64,000 bases of DNA from Massilia sp. erpn (lineage in GTDB: Bacteria > Pseudomonadota > Gammaproteobacteria > Burkholderiales > Burkholderiaceae_D), in contig NZ_CP053748.1 in the NCBI RefSeq assembly GCF_024400215.1, forward strand, positions 1,736,001 through 1,800,000. Reading direction: 5' to 3'. Position numbers and translations under genes: made by a program. How positions within the stretch are numbered: position 1 is the first letter of the stretch; each line of letters opens with the position of its first letter. Below, piece by piece: positions 33,735-40,513 of this stretch. Below the pieces are notes generated by a model, which worked only from the letters and a program-made list of their open reading frames with translations, was not told where the DNA came from and ran no database searches.

Positions 33735-35345
33735 CTACGACAGCACCAGCCTTGCGGCGCGATAGCCCCACCACGAGGCTTCCTCGAAAACCGAGAAGCC
33801 ACTCAGGTCGGAATGGGCGAAGAGGATGGAGCCATCCAGCTCGCGCAGGGCGCGCAGACCGGCATCGCTGCGAAAGCCGGGGGATGGCGAGGCCATGGCG
33901 TGGCCGCGCAGCGTGATGTCGACACGTTCAACGCAGGAGGCGAAATTGGCGCCATAAGCGGCTTTCAGGTCGGCGCTGGCCAGCGCCAGCAGTTCCTGCG
34001 GACTGGCCGAGATCATCCAGCGGCGCGCGCCGGAAGGGGTACGGTCGGACAGGGCCACGTAGGAACTGAATACGGTCTTTTCCGGCGGACGCACGCGAAT
34101 GTCCTGATGCGTGGAGATGACATAGCCCAGCCCCGGCTCGCCATACACCACATTGTCCCAGGAGAGCGGCGCCGGTCCCTTCTCTTCGGGGAAGCGCTTG
34201 AGCAGGAAATTCGCCACCATCCACGGTGCGTACACGGGAATATGCTGGGCGGGGTTGAAGCCATAGCTGGCGATATTCTCCACCACGCGCGCCGCCACAT
34301 ACAGCGGCATGGCGCAGATGGCTTTGCGGGCGCGCACCAGGAAGCTGCGCGGCTTGCCGCCTTCGAGCGCGAAGCACAGCGCTTCCACACCCTTGTCCAC
34401 GCGCTTCAGCGAGACGGCCGTGCCGTTCAGGCGCTGCGCGCCGGAGCGCCGTTCCAGGCCGGAGGCCAGGGTCTGCAAGCCGCCCGGCCAGGTGAGCCAT
34501 GCGCCCTGCCCGGCATTGGCCGCCTCGCCGCCGCGGCCACAGAAGTAGTGCAGGCCGGCCCAGGCGGATACCTTGTCGTAGCGCGCGCCGTAATCGTCGC
34601 GGCAGCAGTAGTTCAGGTACCAGTGCAAACTGGGCGAGCGGTAGCCTTTCTGCTCTATCCATTGCTTGAAGCTGATCGCGTCGAGCTTGAGCCAAGCAGC
34701 ATCGTCCGAGGAATTCACGGTGGGGAAAGCGAAGACACGCTTGCCATCGCTGCCGCGCGCCTGGCGTAGTTGTTCGACTTCGGCGAAGAAGCGTTTGTGT
34801 TCTTCCAGCTCCTGCGCCGGCACGCCTTCGTGCGGCACCAGCCCTTCCTGCCATTGGCCGTCGAACAGCAGGCGTTCTTCCGGCGCGTGCAGCACGGCGC
34901 GCTCGTCGTAGTAGGGCTTTTGCGCCATGGCGTCGCGCTGGATCACACCCAGGTCGGCCAGGATTTCGCGCACATGGAAGCAGTCCTGCGTCGGCAAAGG
35001 CAGGTAATGCGCACCGGTGGGGAAGGCGAGATCACCAAAGCTGCCGCCAGCCGCATTGCCATAAGGCTGAGGGCCATCCAGCAAGAGGAAATCGCGCTTG
35101 CCCTCCTTGGCCATCTTCCACGCTGCAGTCAATCCGGCGATGCCGGAGCCGAGGATCAGCACATCGGTTTCCAGCGTTTGCGATGGCGGCGGCAAGGCCT
35201 TGCGGTCGCGCAGAAAGTGGCCTTCGTCACGGCCCGGCATAGTGATGTTGGGCGTGATTTCCTGCCAGCGCAGAAAGCCCGCCACGCCGGCGGCGGCGGT
35301 CGCGCCGCTGGCGCCTGCCCACAGCAGAAAGGAGCGGCGCAGCAT
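33735..35345 (-). CDS. FAD-dependent oxidoreductase, amine-oxidase-like, in polyamine locus
   Basis: A 536-residue flavoprotein. The N-terminus (MLRRSFLLWAGASG...) has a twin-arginine RRSFL followed by a hydrophobic stretch, so Tat export or an anchored periplasmic location is possible. The FAD-binding Rossmann motif DVLILGSGIAGLTAAW has GSGIAG at residues 66-71. The C-terminal part ends in a second FAD contact (ILFAHSDLSGFSVFEEASWWG). Overall it resembles amine/polyamine oxidase or phytoene-desaturase-like enzymes; the substrate is not evident. Its ATG shares one base with the stop of the aminopropyltransferase gene (TGATG), so the two are translationally coupled. Oxidation of the polyamine made by its partner is a reasonable inference. 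Confidence 0.82.
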   Translation of the reverse strand: MLRRSFLLWAGASGATAAAGVAGFLRWQEITPNITMPGRDEGHFLRDRKALPPPSQTLETDVLILGSGIAGLTAAWKMAKEGKRDFLLLDGPQPYGNAAGGSFGDLAFPTGAHYLPLPTQDCFHVREILADLGVIQRDAMAQKPYYDERAVLHAPEERLLFDGQWQEGLVPHEGVPAQELEEHKRFFAEVEQLRQARGSDGKRVFAFPTVNSSDDAAWLKLDAISFKQWIEQKGYRSPSLHWYLNYCCRDDYGARYDKVSAWAGLHYFCGRGGEAANAGQGAWLTWPGGLQTLASGLERRSGAQRLNGTAVSLKRVDKGVEALCFALEGGKPRSFLVRARKAICAMPLYVAARVVENIASYGFNPAQHIPVYAPWMVANFLLKRFPEEKGPAPLSWDNVVYGEPGLGYVISTHQDIRVRPPEKTVFSSYVALSDRTPSGARRWMISASPQELLALASADLKAAYGANFASCVERVDITLRGHAMASPSPGFRSDAGLRALRELDGSILFAHSDLSGFSVFEEASWWGYRAARLVLS

Positions 35346-36856
35346 CAGCGTATGCTCCGCCGCCAGTCGCGCTCAAATTCATTCACGAGGGACTGGGTAT
35401 TGAGGCGGTTGGGTTCCATCGGCAGCGGCTTCATATCGGGCGGGAAGCTGAACATGGCGCGCGTGGTTTCCGCATTCAGGTAGCGCATCGGCAGGCGATA
35501 AGACTCGGGCGGCTTGTACTCCCGCTGCGGCGAGGCGAGGATGAAGCCCCATTCGCCGAAGGAAGGAACATAGGCGTGATAAGGACTGGTGCGCAGACCC
35601 ACTTCGCGCAGCGTGGCGTCGATGGTCCAGAAAGCATGCGGGGCGAAGAAGGGCGAGGTCGATTGCACCACCAGCAGGCCGTTCGCCGCCATATGCTGCT
35701 TCACCATGCCGTAGAACGGCACGGAATACAGCTTGCCCAGCGCGAAGCTGGAGGGATCGGGGAAGTCGATGATGACGGCGTCGAACATCTCCTCCGTGTT
35801 CTGCAGCCAGATCGCCGCGTCGGCATTGACGACGCGCACGCGCTTGTCGGCAAAGGCGCCCTGGTTCAGCTTCACCAGTTCCTCGCGGCGCGCGAAAGCC
35901 TGGGTCATGGCGGGATCGAGATCGACCAGCGTGACCTGTTCCACCTGTGGATAACGCAGCACTTCGCGCAAGGCCAGGCCATCGCCGCCGCCGAGCACCA
36001 GCACGCGGCGCGCCCAGGGCAGCGCTTCCATGGCCGGATGCACCAGCGCTTCGTGGTAGCGGTATTCGTCGCGCGAGGAGAACTGCAGATTGCCGTTGAT
36101 GTAGAGGCGCAGATCGTCCTTCCAGCGCGTGATGACCAGACGCTGGTACGGCGTGGTGGTGGAATACACGATCTCGTCGCCGAACAAGCCATGCTCGCCG
36201 AACTGCGTCATGCGGTCGGCGCCGATAAAGCCGAACACCAGCGCCACCAGCACGGCGCTGGCGCGCAGCAGGCGTCCCGTCAGATTTTCCAGTTCGCGGC
36301 GAAAAACATAGATGGTCCACAGCGCCACGCCCACGTTCAGCATGCCGAACATGAAGCCGGTGCGCACCAGTCCCAGATGCGGCGCCAGCACCAGCGGGAA
36401 CAGCAGGGACACGGCCAGCGCGCCCAGATAGTCGAAGGTCAGCACCCGGCTTACCAGTTCGCTGAAGCCGGTCTGGCGCGCGTTCAGAGCGCGCATCACC
36501 AGCGGCACTTCCATGCCCACCATGGCGCCGACCATGAACACCATCGCATACAGCATGGTGCGGAAGGGTGCGCCCATCCACGAGAAGGTCAGGAACAGCA
36601 AGGCCGCCGACACGCCGCCAATCAGGCCCACGGCCAGTTCGATATCGACGAAACGGGCCAGCACATCTTCGTCCTTCACGTATTTGGACAGGTGGGCGCC
36701 GACGCCCATGGCGAACAGGTAGCAGCCGATGATGGTGGAAAACTGGAGAATGGAATCGCCCAGCAGGTAACTGGCGAGTGCCCCGGCGATCAATTCGTAG
36801 GCCAGCCCGCAGGAAGCGACCACGAAGACGGACAGGATCAGAATCTTTTTGGTCAT
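35345..36856 (-). CDS. Membrane-embedded polyamine aminopropyltransferase (spermidine synthase-like)
   Basis: A 503-residue fusion. Residues 1-215 contain about seven membrane helices. Residues about 225-480 form a spermidine-synthase-type methyltransferase-fold domain. STTTPYQRLVITRW and DEYRYHEALVHPAM match the substrate-entry region, GGGDG is at 289-293 (decarboxylated AdoMet site), VDLDPAM at 311-317, and the catalytic VIIDFPDPSSF has Asp364 and Asp367. It would transfer an aminopropyl group to an amine at the inner face of the membrane. It is divergent from the DUF350-SPFH-DUF4178-speD operon across 69 bp and coupled to the flavoprotein gene. The decarboxylated AdoMet can come from the SpeD encoded in the other arm. 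Confidence 0.9.
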   Translation of the reverse strand: MTKKILILSVFVVASCGLAYELIAGALASYLLGDSILQFSTIIGCYLFAMGVGAHLSKYVKDEDVLARFVDIELAVGLIGGVSAALLFLTFSWMGAPFRTMLYAMVFMVGAMVGMEVPLVMRALNARQTGFSELVSRVLTFDYLGALAVSLLFPLVLAPHLGLVRTGFMFGMLNVGVALWTIYVFRRELENLTGRLLRASAVLVALVFGFIGADRMTQFGEHGLFGDEIVYSTTTPYQRLVITRWKDDLRLYINGNLQFSSRDEYRYHEALVHPAMEALPWARRVLVLGGGDGLALREVLRYPQVEQVTLVDLDPAMTQAFARREELVKLNQGAFADKRVRVVNADAAIWLQNTEEMFDAVIIDFPDPSSFALGKLYSVPFYGMVKQHMAANGLLVVQSTSPFFAPHAFWTIDATLREVGLRTSPYHAYVPSFGEWGFILASPQREYKPPESYRLPMRYLNAETTRAMFSFPPDMKPLPMEPNRLNTQSLVNEFERDWRRSIR

Positions 36857-36925
36857 TTACGTGCTTTTGCTCTAATATGTTTCTATGCAAGCAAGTTTGA
36901 CACATACTCAGCCACGGGGAAAGAC

Positions 36926-37312
36926 GTGTACGCCATCCTGAATTATCTGATCCACCTGTTTTTGGCTGCCTTTTTATTGGGCGTGTTCTTCAAAGCGTAC
37001 ACCTGGATGACACCCTACGATGAAGTTCTGCTGATCCGCCAGGGCAATCACGCCGCGGCCCTGTCGCTGGGCGGCGCCCTGATCGGCTTCTCGCTGACGA
37101 TCGCTTCCAGCCTGCTGCACACCGCGAATTACCAGCAGTTCTTTGCCTGGGCCGGCGGCGCCATGGTGGTGCAGGCTTTGGCCTATGCCGTCACCACGCG
37201 CCTGCTGCGCATGGCCAAGGACCAGATCGAGGCCGACAACAGCGCCTTCGGCGGCCTGCTGGGCGCGATTTCGCTCTCCATCGGCGGCATCAACGCCGCC
37301 TGCATTTCCTGA
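36926..37312 (+). CDS. DUF350 family membrane protein (YjfL-like)
   Basis: A 128-residue protein with four predicted membrane helices. The pattern of a first helix LFLAAFLLGVFFKAYTW, then LIRQGNHAAALSLGGALIGFSLTIAS and a C-terminal GLLGAISLSIGGINAACIS, matches DUF350 (E. coli YjfL). The start is a GTG at 36926 with GGGGA five to six bases upstream; the very long open frame further upstream is antisense to the aminopropyltransferase gene and is rejected. It is the first gene of the plus-strand arm of the polyamine locus. DUF350 proteins have no established biochemical function. Confidence 0.88.
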   Translation: MYAILNYLIHLFLAAFLLGVFFKAYTWMTPYDEVLLIRQGNHAAALSLGGALIGFSLTIASSLLHTANYQQFFAWAGGAMVVQALAYAVTTRLLRMAKDQIEADNSAFGGLLGAISLSIGGINAACIS

Positions 37313-37340
37313 CACTTAGCATTCAAGCGAGGACCACACC

Positions 37341-38375
37341 ATGGGTATCGGCAGCTTTATCAAGAAGCAGTTTATCGACGTCCTGCAATGGAACGAGGAC
37401 ACGGAAGGCGTATTGGCCTGGCGCTATCCCATGCAGGACGCGGAAATCCAGAACGGCGGCGTGCTGGTGGTGCGCGAATCGCAGGTGGCGGTCTTCGTCA
37501 ACGAAGGCCAGATCGCCGACGTCTTCGGCCCCGGCACACACAAGCTGAGTACCCAAACCTTGCCCGTGCTGACCAATCTGAAAAACTGGGACAAGCTGTT
37601 CGACTCCCCGTTCAAGTCGGACGTGTACTTCTTCAGCACCCGCGTGCAGACCGGCCGCAAATGGGGCACGCAGCAGCCGATCACCATCCGCGACAAGGAT
37701 TTCGACATGATCCGCGTGCGAGCCTTCGGCATGTATTCCTACCGCGTGACGGATGCGCGCAAGTTTTTCACGGAAGTGAGCGGCACGCGCGAAGCCTATA
37801 CCCGCGACGAGGTGGAAGACCAGCTGCGCGGCATCCTGATGGCGACCATGGCCAGCTCGCTGGGCGGCTCGAATATCGCCTTCCTCGACATGGCGGCCAA
37901 CCAGGCCTTGATGGCGCAGGAAGTCAAAGGCGACCTGGCCGACGCTTTTGCGCGTTACGGCATCGGCCTCGATGAATTCAATGTGGCCAGCGTCAGCCTG
38001 CCGGAAGAGCTGCAGGCGGCGCTGGACGAGCGCATCTCGGCCGGCATGAAAGGCGGCCTCTCGGCCGATAAGCTGGGCGGCTTCACCAAATACCAGGTGG
38101 CCAGCGCCATTCCACTGGCGGCGCAGAACGAAGGCGGCATCGCCGGCATCGGCGCCGGCCTGGGCGCGGGCGTGACCATCGGCCAGGCCATGGGCCAGGC
38201 GGTGGGCGCCAGCATGGCCCAGGTGGGCACGCCTGCCGCGGCGGCGCCTGCGGTGGCGGATGACTCCATCGAAGCCCGTCTGGGCAAGCTGAAAGCCCTG
38301 CTCGACAAAGGCCTGATCTCGGCGGCCGACTACGACAGCACCAAGGCCGAGCTGCTGAAAAAACTGATCGGTTAA
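37341..38375 (+). CDS. SPFH-domain protein with C-terminal SHOCT (YdjI-like)
   Basis: A 344-residue protein. Residues about 35-235 form an SPFH/band-7-type domain of the YdjI group (VVRESQVAVFVNEGQIADVFGPG, then RVRAFGMYSYRVTDARKFF). Residues about 250-300 are a Gly/Ala-rich segment. Residues about 308-344 form a SHOCT oligomerisation motif (IEARLGKLKALLDKGLISAADYD). YdjI-type SPFH proteins in Bacillus are encoded with phage-shock-type membrane stress proteins, so a membrane microdomain or stress role is plausible. It has no classical transmembrane helix. It starts 28 bp after the DUF350 gene with GCGAGGA upstream of the ATG. Confidence 0.88.
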   Translation: MGIGSFIKKQFIDVLQWNEDTEGVLAWRYPMQDAEIQNGGVLVVRESQVAVFVNEGQIADVFGPGTHKLSTQTLPVLTNLKNWDKLFDSPFKSDVYFFSTRVQTGRKWGTQQPITIRDKDFDMIRVRAFGMYSYRVTDARKFFTEVSGTREAYTRDEVEDQLRGILMATMASSLGGSNIAFLDMAANQALMAQEVKGDLADAFARYGIGLDEFNVASVSLPEELQAALDERISAGMKGGLSADKLGGFTKYQVASAIPLAAQNEGGIAGIGAGLGAGVTIGQAMGQAVGASMAQVGTPAAAAPAVADDSIEARLGKLKALLDKGLISAADYDSTKAELLKKLIG

Positions 38376-38384
38376 GCGCGCCTG

Positions 38385-39851
38385 ATGCAAGTAGTTTCCT
38401 GCCCCAGCTGCGGCGCCGAAGTCAGCTTCCGCTCGCACGCCTCGGTCATGGCCGTGTGCGAGTACTGCAATACCCGTGTGCTCAAGGATGCCGACGCGGT
38501 CCAGAACCTGGGCAAGATCGGCTCCGTGCTGGAGGATTATTCCCCGCTCTGCCTGAACGCCAGCGGCGTGCTGGGTGGCCGCGCCTTCAGCGTGATCGGC
38601 CGCATCCAGCTGCGCTATGCGGCCGGCATGTGGAACGAGTGGTATCTGCAATTCGAGGACGGCAGCAACGGCTGGCTGGGCGACGCCTCCGGCCAGTACA
38701 CCGTGACCACGCTGCGCAAGCCGGAAGGCCAACTGCCCGCGTTCGAGCAGCTGGCGCCGGGCAAGCAGTACGTCATCGGCAAGGAAACGTATACGGCGGC
38801 CGATATCCGCAGCGCCGAGTGCAGTGGCGGCCAGGGCGAGCTGCCCTTCAAGGTAGGCGATGGCTGGCAGGCGCGCGTGGCCGACCTGCGCCTGGGCGAA
38901 AGCTTTGTCACGCTCGATTATTCGGACGGCCCGCAGCCGCAGCTGTATCACGGCATCGCCGTCACCTTGGGCAACATGCAGATGCAGCTGCTGCGCGACG
39001 ACGAGCAAATCCGCCGCACCGCGGGCCGCTACCGGGGCAAGCTCGATGCGCTGAACTGCCCTTCCTGCGGCAGCGCCATCAAATACCTGCCCGGCCTGAC
39101 CGCGAGCCTGGTCTGCCAGTCCTGCCAGACGAGCATCAATGCGGCCAGCCCGCAGGCGCAGGTGCTGGCGGCCGGGGCAAAGCTTGAGCAAGTGCCCACT
39201 TCGCTGGAACTGGGCGCCAGCGGCAAGCTGGGAAACCAGGAATATATGGTGCTCGGCATCCTGCGCCGCCAGGACGATGAGGGCAGCAGCTGGACCGAAT
39301 ATCTGCTGTACAGCGGCCGCAAAGGCTTTACCTGGCTGGTGGAGACGGACGAGGGCTGGTTCCGTTCGAACGTGATGGACAAGTGGCCTAGCTGGTCCGG
39401 CCCGGCCGCGCTGCTCTGCACCTTCGAAAAGATCAACTACGCCAAACTGTACGACTACAGCGCCAAGGTCACGTTCGCGGCGGGCGCCTTCAACTGGCGC
39501 GTCAGCGTGGGCGACGAAGCCAAGGTCTACGAATTCAAACAGGGCGTGGTGCAGCTGGCGGCCGAGCTGACTGGCGAGGAATTGAGCTGGTCGCGCGCCA
39601 CGCCGATGTCGCGCGACCAGGTGAAGGCCTGGTTTGGCGCAGCGTATCGCGGCCCGGAACCGGGCGCGCCGCTGCTCGACTCGGCGGCGGGCAAGCGCTA
39701 TACCTCGGTGGCCAAGGGCATGATCATGATGCTGCTGGCGATCAATGCGATACCGCTGCTGGCGTCTTTCACCAGCACCTTCATGTATACCGTGATCGCG
39801 GTGCTGGCGATCTATATTCCCGCCAAAATTCTGGATGCGATGGATAAGTAA
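38385..39851 (+). CDS. Duplicated zinc-ribbon/DUF4178 membrane protein
   Basis: A 488-residue protein built as an internal duplication. Zinc ribbon 1 uses Cys6, Cys9, Cys25 and Cys28 and is followed by a DUF4178-like beta-rich domain (about 55-205). Zinc ribbon 2 uses Cys225, Cys228, Cys244 and Cys247 and is followed by a second DUF4178-like domain (about 265-415). Two hydrophobic helices at about 446-462 and 467-480 anchor the C-terminus. The pattern WNEWYLQFEDGSNGWL / WTEYLLYSGRKGFTWL recurs in both copies. DUF4178 has no known activity; it recurs with DUF350 and polyamine genes. It starts 9 bp after the SPFH gene. Confidence 0.85.
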   Translation: MQVVSCPSCGAEVSFRSHASVMAVCEYCNTRVLKDADAVQNLGKIGSVLEDYSPLCLNASGVLGGRAFSVIGRIQLRYAAGMWNEWYLQFEDGSNGWLGDASGQYTVTTLRKPEGQLPAFEQLAPGKQYVIGKETYTAADIRSAECSGGQGELPFKVGDGWQARVADLRLGESFVTLDYSDGPQPQLYHGIAVTLGNMQMQLLRDDEQIRRTAGRYRGKLDALNCPSCGSAIKYLPGLTASLVCQSCQTSINAASPQAQVLAAGAKLEQVPTSLELGASGKLGNQEYMVLGILRRQDDEGSSWTEYLLYSGRKGFTWLVETDEGWFRSNVMDKWPSWSGPAALLCTFEKINYAKLYDYSAKVTFAAGAFNWRVSVGDEAKVYEFKQGVVQLAAELTGEELSWSRATPMSRDQVKAWFGAAYRGPEPGAPLLDSAAGKRYTSVAKGMIMMLLAINAIPLLASFTSTFMYTVIAVLAIYIPAKILDAMDK

Positions 39852-39852
39852 G

Positions 39853-40017
39853 ATGGGTAAATTCCTGGTGTATGCGGTGGTCGTGACCATCTTCAGCATG
39901 TCGGCAAGCTGGATACGCATGTTCTCCGGCGACGAAAACACGCATAGCGGCAGCAGCTGGTCCTCGCGCACCGGCGGCGGCAGCTGGGGCGGCGGTGGCG
40001 GCGGAGGTCACAAGTGA
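39853..40017 (+). CDS. Small one-helix glycine-rich membrane peptide
   Basis: A 54-residue peptide with an N-terminal hydrophobic helix (FLVYAVVVTIFSMSASWI) and a Ser/Gly-rich tail ending in seven consecutive glycines and HK. The ATG at 39853 begins one base after the stop of the DUF4178 gene, and its stop overlaps the GTG start of speD (GTGA). Translational coupling to both neighbours supports it as a real gene despite its size. Function unknown. Confidence 0.75.
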   Translation: MGKFLVYAVVVTIFSMSASWIRMFSGDENTHSGSSWSSRTGGGSWGGGGGGGHK

Positions 40018-40412
40018 GCGCATACTCACGCACTGACGACCGCCATCTGCCCAGCGGCACGCATTTGCTGGCCGATCTTTCGGGCATCGCCGCGCAGCGC
40101 CTGGGCGACTGCGCGGCCATCGAAAAGCTGCTGCGCGCCGCCGCCGAAGCGGCCGGTGCCTGCGTGCTGCACAGCCATTTTCACGGCTTCGGTCCGGGCC
40201 AGGGCGTGACCGGCGTGGTGCTGCTGGCCGAATCGCATATCTCCATCCATACCTGGCCGGAGGATGGCTTTGCCGCCGCCGACATCTTCATGTGCGGCGC
40301 GGCCCAACCCCAGTTGGCGCTCGACCTGCTGCGCGCCGCCCTGCAGCCTGCCCATTGCGAGCTGCACACGGTGCGCCGCGCGCCGCCCAAGCTGCTGGCG
40401 CGTGCTGGTTGA
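40014..40412 (+). CDS. speD: S-adenosylmethionine decarboxylase proenzyme
   Basis: A 132-residue prokaryotic AdoMet decarboxylase of the short SpeD/SpeH type. Autoprocessing is expected between Glu73 and Ser74 (LLAESHISIHTWPE), Ser74 becoming the pyruvoyl group. His79 and Cys94 (DIFMCG) stand at +5 and +20 from that serine, as in characterised short AdoMet decarboxylases. The product, decarboxylated AdoMet, is the aminopropyl donor for the aminopropyltransferase encoded divergently at 36856. The start is GTG at 40014, preceded by GGAGG with 6-nt spacing and overlapping the previous stop. It is the last gene of the arm. Confidence 0.93.
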   Translation: MSAYSRTDDRHLPSGTHLLADLSGIAAQRLGDCAAIEKLLRAAAEAAGACVLHSHFHGFGPGQGVTGVVLLAESHISIHTWPEDGFAAADIFMCGAAQPQLALDLLRAALQPAHCELHTVRRAPPKLLARAG

Positions 40413-40474: not shown

Positions 40475-40513
40475 ATGCGTCAATTGGACATTGCCCTCCT
40501 GTCGGCAGCCTGA
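40475..40513 (+). CDS. Candidate 12-codon leader peptide upstream of rsgA
   Basis: A short frame encoding MRQLDIALLSAA and ending in TGA, with AGGAG at 40462-40466, eight bases before the ATG. It stands in the 267-bp gap between speD and rsgA, about 165 bp before the rsgA start. The good ribosome binding site and isolation suggest a translated leader that could regulate rsgA, but such a short frame could also occur by chance. The remaining gap shows no other recognisable element. Confidence 0.35.
   Translation: MRQLDIALLSAA

Follow-up and report, generated by a model that had tools for sequence, protein, structure and literature searches.

A divergent membrane aminopropyltransferase locus of Massilia sp. 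erpn and a lysine-ending peptide tail as its candidate acceptor

Organization of the locus

The window analysed here is a stretch of 64,000 nucleotides of Massilia sp. erpn. The seven ORFs that a preliminary description had arranged in two divergent arms are all present, the arms being separated by an intergenic region of 69 nt (36857-36925) in which a simple scan found no sigma-70-like promoter. The minus-strand arm encodes a putative FAD amine oxidase (33735-35345), recognised as an ORF with a weak Pfam match, and a membrane aminopropyltransferase, hereafter APT (35345-36856), which matches Spermine_synth and PRK03612; the two ORFs overlap by 1 nt. On the plus strand, a DUF350 integral membrane protein of the YjfL family with a GTG start (36926-37312) is followed by an SPFH/Band_7_1 protein with a SHOCT-like C-terminal end (37341-38375) and by a protein with two DUF4178 stretches (38385-39851), all three assigned by Pfam. 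Then come a 54-aa peptide ORF with a single membrane segment and a lysine end (39853-40017), which matches no family, and, overlapping it by 4 nt, SpeD, a putative class 1b S-adenosylmethionine decarboxylase (40014-40412) with AdoMet_dc and TIGR03330 matches.

A family search returned no ATP-grasp match for any of the seven ORFs, and there is no match to a PspA homologue among them; the absence of an ATP-grasp partner from the locus had already been remarked upon. The repeats are short families only and look like chance. A role in anti-phage defence was rejected: the APT domain gave the sole PADLOC match, to mads_2 at 55.7 bits, which we read as a shared methyltransferase-like fold.

For comparison, APT loci were gathered from 36 other genomes (37 loci) selected by score, from about 175 bits upwards except for G001, which was kept at 112 bits. 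In total 142 of 299 genomes matched somehow; the remainder, consisting of soluble SpeE-like proteins, weak MFS-type proteins and divergent forms (G225, G035, G181 and G034 among them), was left out of all counts. The layout is not due to chance, since 14 of the 117 other APT loci likewise have all six of the detectable families split between two divergent arms when the window's own families are scored; a lack of conserved co-occurrence, which would have counted against the preliminary description, is therefore not what is seen. Gene order is identical across the 14 loci, except for two overlapping oxidase/APT frames in L141.

The aminopropyltransferase and its partners

The APT scores 697.8 bits against NCBIfam NF002956 (PRK03612; cut-off 472) over residues 3-500. 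Residues 2-211 form seven helices and residues ~217-481 the aminopropyltransferase domain. The seven membrane helices were recovered both by hydropathy across 118 sequences and in an AlphaFold model (mean pLDDT 91), which gives the helices and leaves their orientation aside. In the hydropathy and topology analysis the positive-inside rule is obeyed by the seven helices in 118 of 118 APT sequences, and on this ground the catalytic domain is predicted to lie outside the cytoplasm.

The fold, the dcSAM-binding motifs and the catalytic Asp pair are common to the APT and to spermidine synthases of the SpeE type (1uir, 3o4f). The dcSAM-site and catalytic motifs YHE, GGGDG and D-x-x-D-P were found by comparison with 1uir and E. 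coli SpeE; their columns are invariant in 43 sequences, and mostly invariant or nearly so in a set of 22. Unlike SpeE, the APT has an additional seven-helix membrane domain, and its acceptor-side motifs differ: where E. coli SpeE has CTDP, QNG and PTYYGG, the 11 members compared have PDP-, QST/QAT/QCT- and P(S/T)F-G-type motifs, with FPDP, QSTSP and PSF-GEWGF standing in for the SpeE motifs (the roles assigned to the residues of the SpeE motifs being taken by us as an assumption).

SpeD reaches 126.9 bits against TIGR03330 (cut-off 75.65), and in an alignment T. maritima 1vr7 matches its segments ESHISIHTWPE and ..MCG. According to the relevant passages of PMC10407285, an AdoMet decarboxylase has the pyruvoyl Ser and the catalytic His and Cys, and a conserved Pro is missing in ADC-type homologues. 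By score, alignment and these residues the sequence fits a class 1b AdoMetDC, and an ornithine or arginine decarboxylase was rejected; SpeD would supply dcSAM. It is alone in the genome in matching PF02675. No other canonical SpeE was found in the genome by PF01564; bulk spermidine synthesis by another enzyme was rejected, as the three other PF01564 matches are weak (30-34 bits) and lack GGGDG and DxxDP. Two matches to the PF02784 decarboxylase family occur in the genome, and an ornithine decarboxylase may be one of them.

The oxidase has a Pfam Amino_oxidase score of 27.6 bits (cut-off 19.8), and a PDB sequence search with it gave no matches. Its AlphaFold model (pLDDT 91.6) is a monoamine-oxidase fold with a FAD site; the best Foldseek matches are 2yg3, a putrescine oxidase that ranks first, and 8p84, with E values of ~1e-21 and query-based TM scores of 0.60-0.62. 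The substrate class is not fixed by the model, as protoporphyrinogen oxidases reach similar scores. A twin-arginine signal (MLRRSFLLW..) is present at the N-terminus, and an RR/RK-x-hydrophobic motif in 35 of the 41 scorable orthologues, 31 of the 72 ORFs having been set aside as their FAD motif was not recognised by pattern; the oxidase is thus predicted to be exported. Within the loci themselves, it was detected in 72 of 117 and not detected in 45.

The DUF350 protein scores 105.6 bits in Pfam (cut-off 26), and DUF350 was found in 36 of the 37 APT genomes. The SPFH protein has 253.2 bits for Band_7_1 and, for SHOCT, 25.1 bits, just below the cut-off of 27. By eye, the DUF4178 protein contains CxxC pairs and, towards its C-terminus, two hydrophobic segments; the 23 of 299 genomes with DUF4178 all fall within the 37 APT genomes.

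A lysine-ending tail accompanies the aminopropyltransferase

The 54-aa peptide consists of an N-terminal membrane segment and a Gly/Ser-rich tail ending in ..GGGGGGGHK. In a survey of the kept APT class, 117 of 118 APT loci from several phyla had, at the locus or elsewhere in the genome, a membrane-anchored or secreted protein with a lysine-ending tail. This count takes in loci checked by eye and relaxed or remote looks, and 18 of 117 loci fail the fixed near-APT rule; by the fixed rule alone, a tail lies within 5.2 kb of the APT in 99 of 117. A first filter, which asked for at least 8 G/S among the 21 residues preceding the final one, gave a K end in 69 of 108 passing ORFs near the APT and in 4 of 21 farther away. 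It proved too strict: ..RFYHK, ..IFIPTHK and similar tails escaped it, and once these had been noticed it was relaxed. When every membrane-type ORF is counted, with frame shadows, the fixed ending carries K in 105 of 2250 ORFs near the APT and in 9 of 1035 farther away; the last residue of the other cluster proteins is K in 5 of 290. Plasmid and chromid records from a separate collection (six genera) had the tail in 12 of 12, under a slightly looser rule (hydrophobicity 1.4, strand and distance unlimited).

Counted by position only, 64 of 83 loci with DUF4178 have a separate small membrane ORF. The one nearest ends in K at 59 of these, and at the remaining 5 the tail is carried by the DUF4178 protein itself; among the 19 loci lacking a separate ORF, 17 have a K-ending DUF4178 protein and 2 show the peptide in frame translation. 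Where no tail lies next to the APT, it was seen farther off, at 8 loci with a remote DUF4178 and at 3 loci with a remote DUF350. Across loci it occurs as a free peptide, as a DUF4178 C-terminus or as a lipoprotein C-terminus; it is a movable module. In L105 the tail is encoded on the strand opposite to the APT, at a distance of 4.8 kb, by a gene that overlaps the end of a DUF4178 ORF. The DUF4178 fragments L185, L208, L192, L193, L176 and L177 have no tail there, their genomes or loci having one elsewhere, and in L194, a fragment cut by the locus end, the tail appears once the locus is extended. No tail was found for L072, whose genome (G001, with a diverged APT) has no DUF350 match.

Two other attributions of the tail were rejected. 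That it belongs to DUF4178 and not to the APT is ruled out by tails in genomes without a PF13785 match (L053, L063, L266). That it belongs to DUF350 is contradicted by the fixed rule finding it at 0 of 16 DUF350 loci in genomes without APT and DUF1190, the count covering 16 of the 35 genomes of this kind; a seventeenth, G196, has a K-ending 196-aa ORF ~1.7 kb from DUF350, which passes the looser filter only and fails the fixed rule. The link of the tail lysine to the APT is one of association, and the lysine could instead be a recognition or sorting signal.

Discussion

The gene neighbourhood itself is already in print. Ravi 2024 (PMC11237479) describes band-7/SHOCT polyamine operons, in which band-7 is fused to 2TM and SHOCT, with DUF350, AdoMet decarboxylase and polyamine oxidase partners, as well as CesT/Tir-PspA operons with a 7TM-spermidine synthase, DUF350, the Ctha_1186 lipoprotein and DUF4178, links such operons to envelope stress, and proposes polyamine monitoring or the aminopropylation of other substrates. 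The families and neighbourhood resemble those of our locus, where band-7, DUF350, AdoMetDC and the oxidase are present and SHOCT stays below its Pfam cut-off; the passages of Ravi 2024 considered here, in contrast, make no mention of a lysine-ending tail, a small peptide or an extracytoplasmic catalytic domain. The candidate acceptor is the new part. An SPFH protein is also shared with the Psp systems and with B. subtilis YdjI (PMC8581546), which reportedly acts at the membrane; the seven ORFs of our locus are without PspA.

The E. coli yjfL context, to which this locus had been likened, is an apt comparison: that operon falls in a sister group with GG-ending carriers, mostly beside ATP-grasp ligases. 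YgiB-YgiC and YjfL-YjfM-YjfC resemble our locus in having a membrane or lipoprotein-like carrier with a Gly/Ser/Arg-rich tail and, for yjf, a DUF350 partner. The sister-system carriers end in GG in 28 of 30, a count somewhat favoured by picking the DUF1190 carrier ORF among overlapping frames by tail composition. In those systems the ligase uses the carboxylate, whereas here the proposed carrier ends in HK and the aminopropyltransferase would use an amine; there is no ATP-grasp ORF at the locus and no DUF1190 match in this genome. APT and DUF1190 overlap in 0 of 37 genomes of the kept class, the left-out G225 having DUF1190. For ATP-grasp systems, a peptide-spermidine ligase activity was reportedly described by Pederick in 2023.

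As reported by Li 2019, thousands of bacteria make dcSAM with a class 1b SpeD for an MFS-SpdSyn fusion found with DUF350; the membrane fusion reportedly makes no spermidine and would aminopropylate another acceptor, which was left open. Class 1b SpeD, membrane-fused SpdSyn and DUF350 are shared with our locus, which adds a candidate acceptor. Silaffins have a Ser/Gly/Lys-rich make-up with internal lysines as sites. They are eukaryotic and, as is proposed for the tail, polyamine-modified: long-chain polyamines are covalently attached to silaffin/diatom proteins (PMC6356823).

The preliminary description had the locus make, at the membrane, an amine that is aminopropylated and perhaps oxidised afterwards, with a possible use in envelope protection or signalling. 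It is borne out in part, as the formation of such an amine fits the donor-side motifs kept in the APT together with SpeD, the oxidase model, nearest to putrescine and monoamine oxidases, and the predicted location of the APT domain and the oxidase outside. It had left the acceptor open; from the comparison across APT loci, the leading candidate would be the C-terminal lysine of the 54-aa peptide. We favour, with a probability of about 0.57, the reading that the cluster serves to aminopropylate protein tails. SpeD would decarboxylate AdoMet to dcSAM in the cytoplasm, as its family and kept residues suggest. With the APT domain predicted outside and SpeD in the cytoplasm, dcSAM must reach the outer face, possibly via the APT helices or with DUF350; we know of no dcSAM exporter. 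The outward-facing APT would then, judging from co-occurrence, transfer a 3-aminopropyl group from dcSAM onto the C-terminal lysine of the 54-aa peptide, at its side-chain amine. More speculatively, the exported oxidase may convert the new primary amine to an aldehyde, leading to tail turnover or cross-linking, and DUF350, SPFH and DUF4178 might hold the modified tail at the membrane or sense it there.

It is rather unlikely that the APT instead works at or outside the membrane on, for example, putrescine, 1,3-diaminopropane or hydroxyputrescine to give a small diffusible amine, with an unmodified lysine tail that serves docking or sensing by binding the enzyme, lipids or the amine. The spermidine synthase type of fold and Asp pair and the likeness of the oxidase model to putrescine oxidase would suit this, and putrescine may come via the two PF02784 matches; but the acceptor-side motifs are unlike those of SpeE, a strictly terminal lysine is an odd need for docking, the GG end of the ATP-grasp sister carriers suits carboxylate ligation, and such fusions, as Li 2019 reportedly showed, make no spermidine. 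That the APT aminopropylates a lipid, perhaps at an amine-bearing head group, or a polymer of the envelope, with the tail recruiting the complex to the membrane, is improbable: this agrees with a membrane-bound APT whose catalytic domain is predicted outside and with the envelope-stress link reported in Ravi 2024 (PMC11237479), but leaves the terminal lysine unexplained. That the oxidase acts on the terminal lysine as a bacterial lysyl oxidase, APT and SpeD serving another purpose, is highly improbable despite its modelled monoamine-oxidase fold and predicted export, as the oxidase was detected in only 72 of 117 loci when scored at the loci themselves, while a tail was found for all but one.

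Returning to tail aminopropylation, we would give even odds to a wider, cross-phylum form of it, in which an aminopropyl group (or chain) is placed on the side chain of the C-terminal lysine of membrane-anchored, often Gly/Ser-rich tails outside the cytoplasm, with exported dcSAM and, in many cases, a further step by an exported amine oxidase; together with the ATP-grasp GG carriers, this would make two parallel polyamine tail-capping routes, both often with DUF350.

The proposal predicts an exact mass shift of +57.058 Da (C3H7N) on the C-terminal lysine and an outward-facing dcSAM-using enzyme, which is unusual given the cytoplasmic origin of dcSAM. A common biochemical context would be gained for the small orphan ORF together with DUF350 and DUF4178, and the lysine-ending tail, near-universal beside the APT, names a testable acceptor for the SpdSyn-like puzzle reportedly raised in 2019.

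Organization of the locus

The preliminary description had claimed seven genes in two divergent arms, and indeed we found the seven ORFs placed in this way. On the minus strand, the gene of an FAD amine oxidase (33735-35345) is paired with that of a membrane aminopropyltransferase, APT (35345-36856). The plus-strand arm lies 69 nt from this pair and contains the genes of DUF350 (36926-37312), SPFH (37341-38375) and DUF4178 (38385-39851) proteins, of a 54-aa peptide (39853-40017) and of SpeD (40014-40412). The Massilia sp. erpn genome is a single contig of 6.15 Mb with an estimated completeness of 100%; it encodes a single SpeD and, besides the APT, three further PF01564 proteins, which are weak matches devoid of the usual catalytic motifs.

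In the oxidase family, a GHxLRD-like motif follows the export signal and precedes the FAD domain, with G42 and H43 invariant and R46 nearly so (oxidase alignment columns, P0001 numbering). Directly downstream of the oxidase lies a polyphosphate kinase 2 gene (PF03976; 32872-33774, minus strand); taken at its longest, this ORF would begin within the last part of the oxidase gene. Past it, an aldehyde dehydrogenase (PF00171; 31335-32837, minus strand) could in principle consume an aminoaldehyde product. A 12-codon ORF, MRQLDIALLSAA (40475-40513, plus strand), with an AGGAG-like ribosome site, is located between the genes of SpeD and RsgA; it is possibly a leader peptide, or due to chance.

A lysine-ending tail accompanies the aminopropyltransferase

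The 54-aa peptide has a single hydrophobic segment and its C-terminal end is SSRTGGGSWGGGGGGGHK. We call such a lysine-ending C-terminus, on a membrane-anchored or secreted carrier, a tail. Two sets of loci (L036-L152), selected by their APT match and not by tails, were compared with the window. The first comprised 37 APT loci (L036-L072) from 36 other genomes of the same phylum, in a 299-genome draw; the second comprised 80 named loci (L073-L152) from GTDB genomes, found with an alignment of 22 APTs and assigned by record title to Pseudomonadota, Bacteroidota, Acidobacteria, Myxobacteria, Verrucomicrobia, Planctomycetales, Leptospiraceae and Elusimicrobia.

DUF4178 was detected at 83 loci, the window included. 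By script, a small membrane ORF distinct from DUF4178 ends in K in 53 of these, and 22 carry the tail on the DUF4178 protein's own end; the remaining 8, missed by the script, have a K-ending peptide on inspection (L082, L085, L091, L093, L097, L108, L109, L121). A second script relied only on position, taking whichever small membrane ORF was nearest; 59 of 64 ended in K (HK in 43, GK in 11, VK or IK in 5), and the five others all came from loci carrying the tail on DUF4178. Among the 35 loci where DUF4178 was not detected, the tail is inside the locus in 23, adjoins a DUF4178 gene located beyond the fetched stretch in 8 (L042, L086, L089, L092, L102, L111, L113, L126) and is near a distant DUF350 in 3 (L051, L061, L062); in the last one, L072, no tail was found. 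In total, 117 of the 118 APT loci, window included, have a tail in the locus or elsewhere in the genome. The membrane APT of L072 is diverged, with DFPVP where others have DFPDP; its genome (G001) gave no DUF350 match and the fetched locus no lysine tail, and this APT perhaps has a different function.

As controls, we applied a fixed rule (K after H, G, RV or RI; a hydrophobic segment; at least 40 aa; within 5.2 kb; on the strand of APT or DUF4178), which retrieved a tail in 99 of 117 APT loci. Re-centred on DUF350 and its strand, the same rule gave a tail in 0 of 16 loci, taken from 16 of the 35 genomes lacking both APT and DUF1190, the carrier family of an ATP-grasp sister system. A seventeenth locus (G196) showed, with a looser filter, one K-ending ORF of 196 aa, which fails the fixed rule. 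Only 5 of 290 other cluster proteins end in K (APT 2/117, oxidase 3/72, SPFH 0/46, SpeD 0/39, DUF350 0/16). A separate collection of plasmids and chromids was searched for APT matches covering 80% or more of the query, and every record that qualified has a tail (12/12); these records represent six genera (Burkholderia, Gemmatirosa, Novosphingobium, Tritonibacter, Ensifer, Alteromonas), include near-identical pairs and overlap the first sets by at least one genus (Novosphingobium).

The same ending is found on several carriers: the free membrane peptide, the DUF4178 membrane protein at its C-terminus, small proteins anchored in the membrane (L053, L055-L058) and, in a gammaproteobacterial group and Alteromonas, larger lipoproteins with lipobox-like signals recognized by eye. 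Judged from these sequences, the tail is a movable module, and the lipoprotein carriers would place that tail outside the cytoplasm. On the Alteromonas plasmids (L249/L254, 9539-10645), the cluster includes a gene annotated as toxic anion resistance, and the tail is carried by a 510-aa lipoprotein-like protein.

Genomic co-occurrence

Among the 299 genomes, Massilia sp. erpn included, the kept APT class occurs in 37, DUF350 in 105, DUF4178 in 23, DUF1190 in 49 and SpeD in 82. With relatedness ignored in the hypergeometric P values, DUF350 is present in 36 of the 37 APT genomes (P ~1e-17), all 23 DUF4178 genomes are also APT genomes (P ~4e-25) and DUF1190 occurs in 0/37 genomes of the kept APT class (P 8e-4). 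Of the 49 DUF1190 genomes, 34 also have DUF350. SpeD was found in 28 of the 37 APT genomes and a class 2 AdoMetDC (PF01536) in 7 of the other 9, so that a source of decarboxylated AdoMet (dcSAM) was found in 35/37.

Comparison with the ATP-grasp sister system

In E. coli, YgiB ends in RSMGG and YjfM in GHWGG; they adjoin YgiC and YjfC, which RefSeq annotates as peptide-spermidine ligases, an activity reported by Pederick 2023. Thirty DUF1190 carriers were examined from the 49 genomes with a match, and 28 end in GG, the two exceptions ending in GS (L233) and GT (L234); a YgiC-like ORF is present in 26 of the 30 short DUF1190 loci. An ATP-grasp ligase requires a free carboxylate, as at GG, and an aminopropyltransferase requires an amine, as on lysine. 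Carriers of the ATP-grasp system end in GG, whereas those of the APT system end in K; across the sequences compared, the tail's end letter goes with the enzyme type.

At L269, L271, L278 and L281, 4 of the 16 DUF350 loci having neither APT nor a DUF1190 match, proteins with tails of the RGGFG...GGG, RGGFT...GGG or HGGFG...GGG type adjoin DUF350 or lie at most ~1.2 kb away. GG-type tails may thus exist on carriers outside the DUF1190 family.

Discussion

Ravi et al. 2024 (PMC11237479) describe operons in which a 7TM-fused spermidine synthase is accompanied by a lipoprotein and by DUF350 and DUF4178 proteins. In a variant of these operons, the PspA dyad gives way to a band-7/2TM/SHOCT protein, and an AdoMet decarboxylase and a polyamine oxidase are added; for the AdoMetDC gene linkages they cite Li et al. 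2019. The locus type is already known and, as a gene cluster, the window is one more member. Li et al. reportedly found in 2019 that an MFS-SpdSyn fusion does not make spermidine, its acceptor being unknown.

We propose that the APT aminopropylates the C-terminal lysine of the tail outside the cytoplasm, using dcSAM from SpeD, and we hold this proposal as a whole to be somewhat better than an even bet (about 0.57). It draws on gene content, conservation, tail ending and co-occurrence, which are sequence-level observations, and on predicted topology, oxidase export and folds. The dcSAM would get to the outer face, the lysine side chain would be aminopropylated and the oxidase would act on the aminopropylated product. 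The expected product would be N6-(3-aminopropyl)lysine, with +57.058 Da per group (derived from C3H7N). Repeated transfer would yield longer chains, as in diatom silaffins, where lysine is the polyamine attachment site. Protein-bound long-chain polyamines in diatom silaffins are described in PMC6356823.

In our searches, which covered mostly open-access literature, we met no report that these loci encode a tail or peptide ending in lysine. As far as this search reached, the candidate acceptor, the predicted outward topology and the contrast between K and GG endings are new, and together they make the question of the acceptor directly testable.
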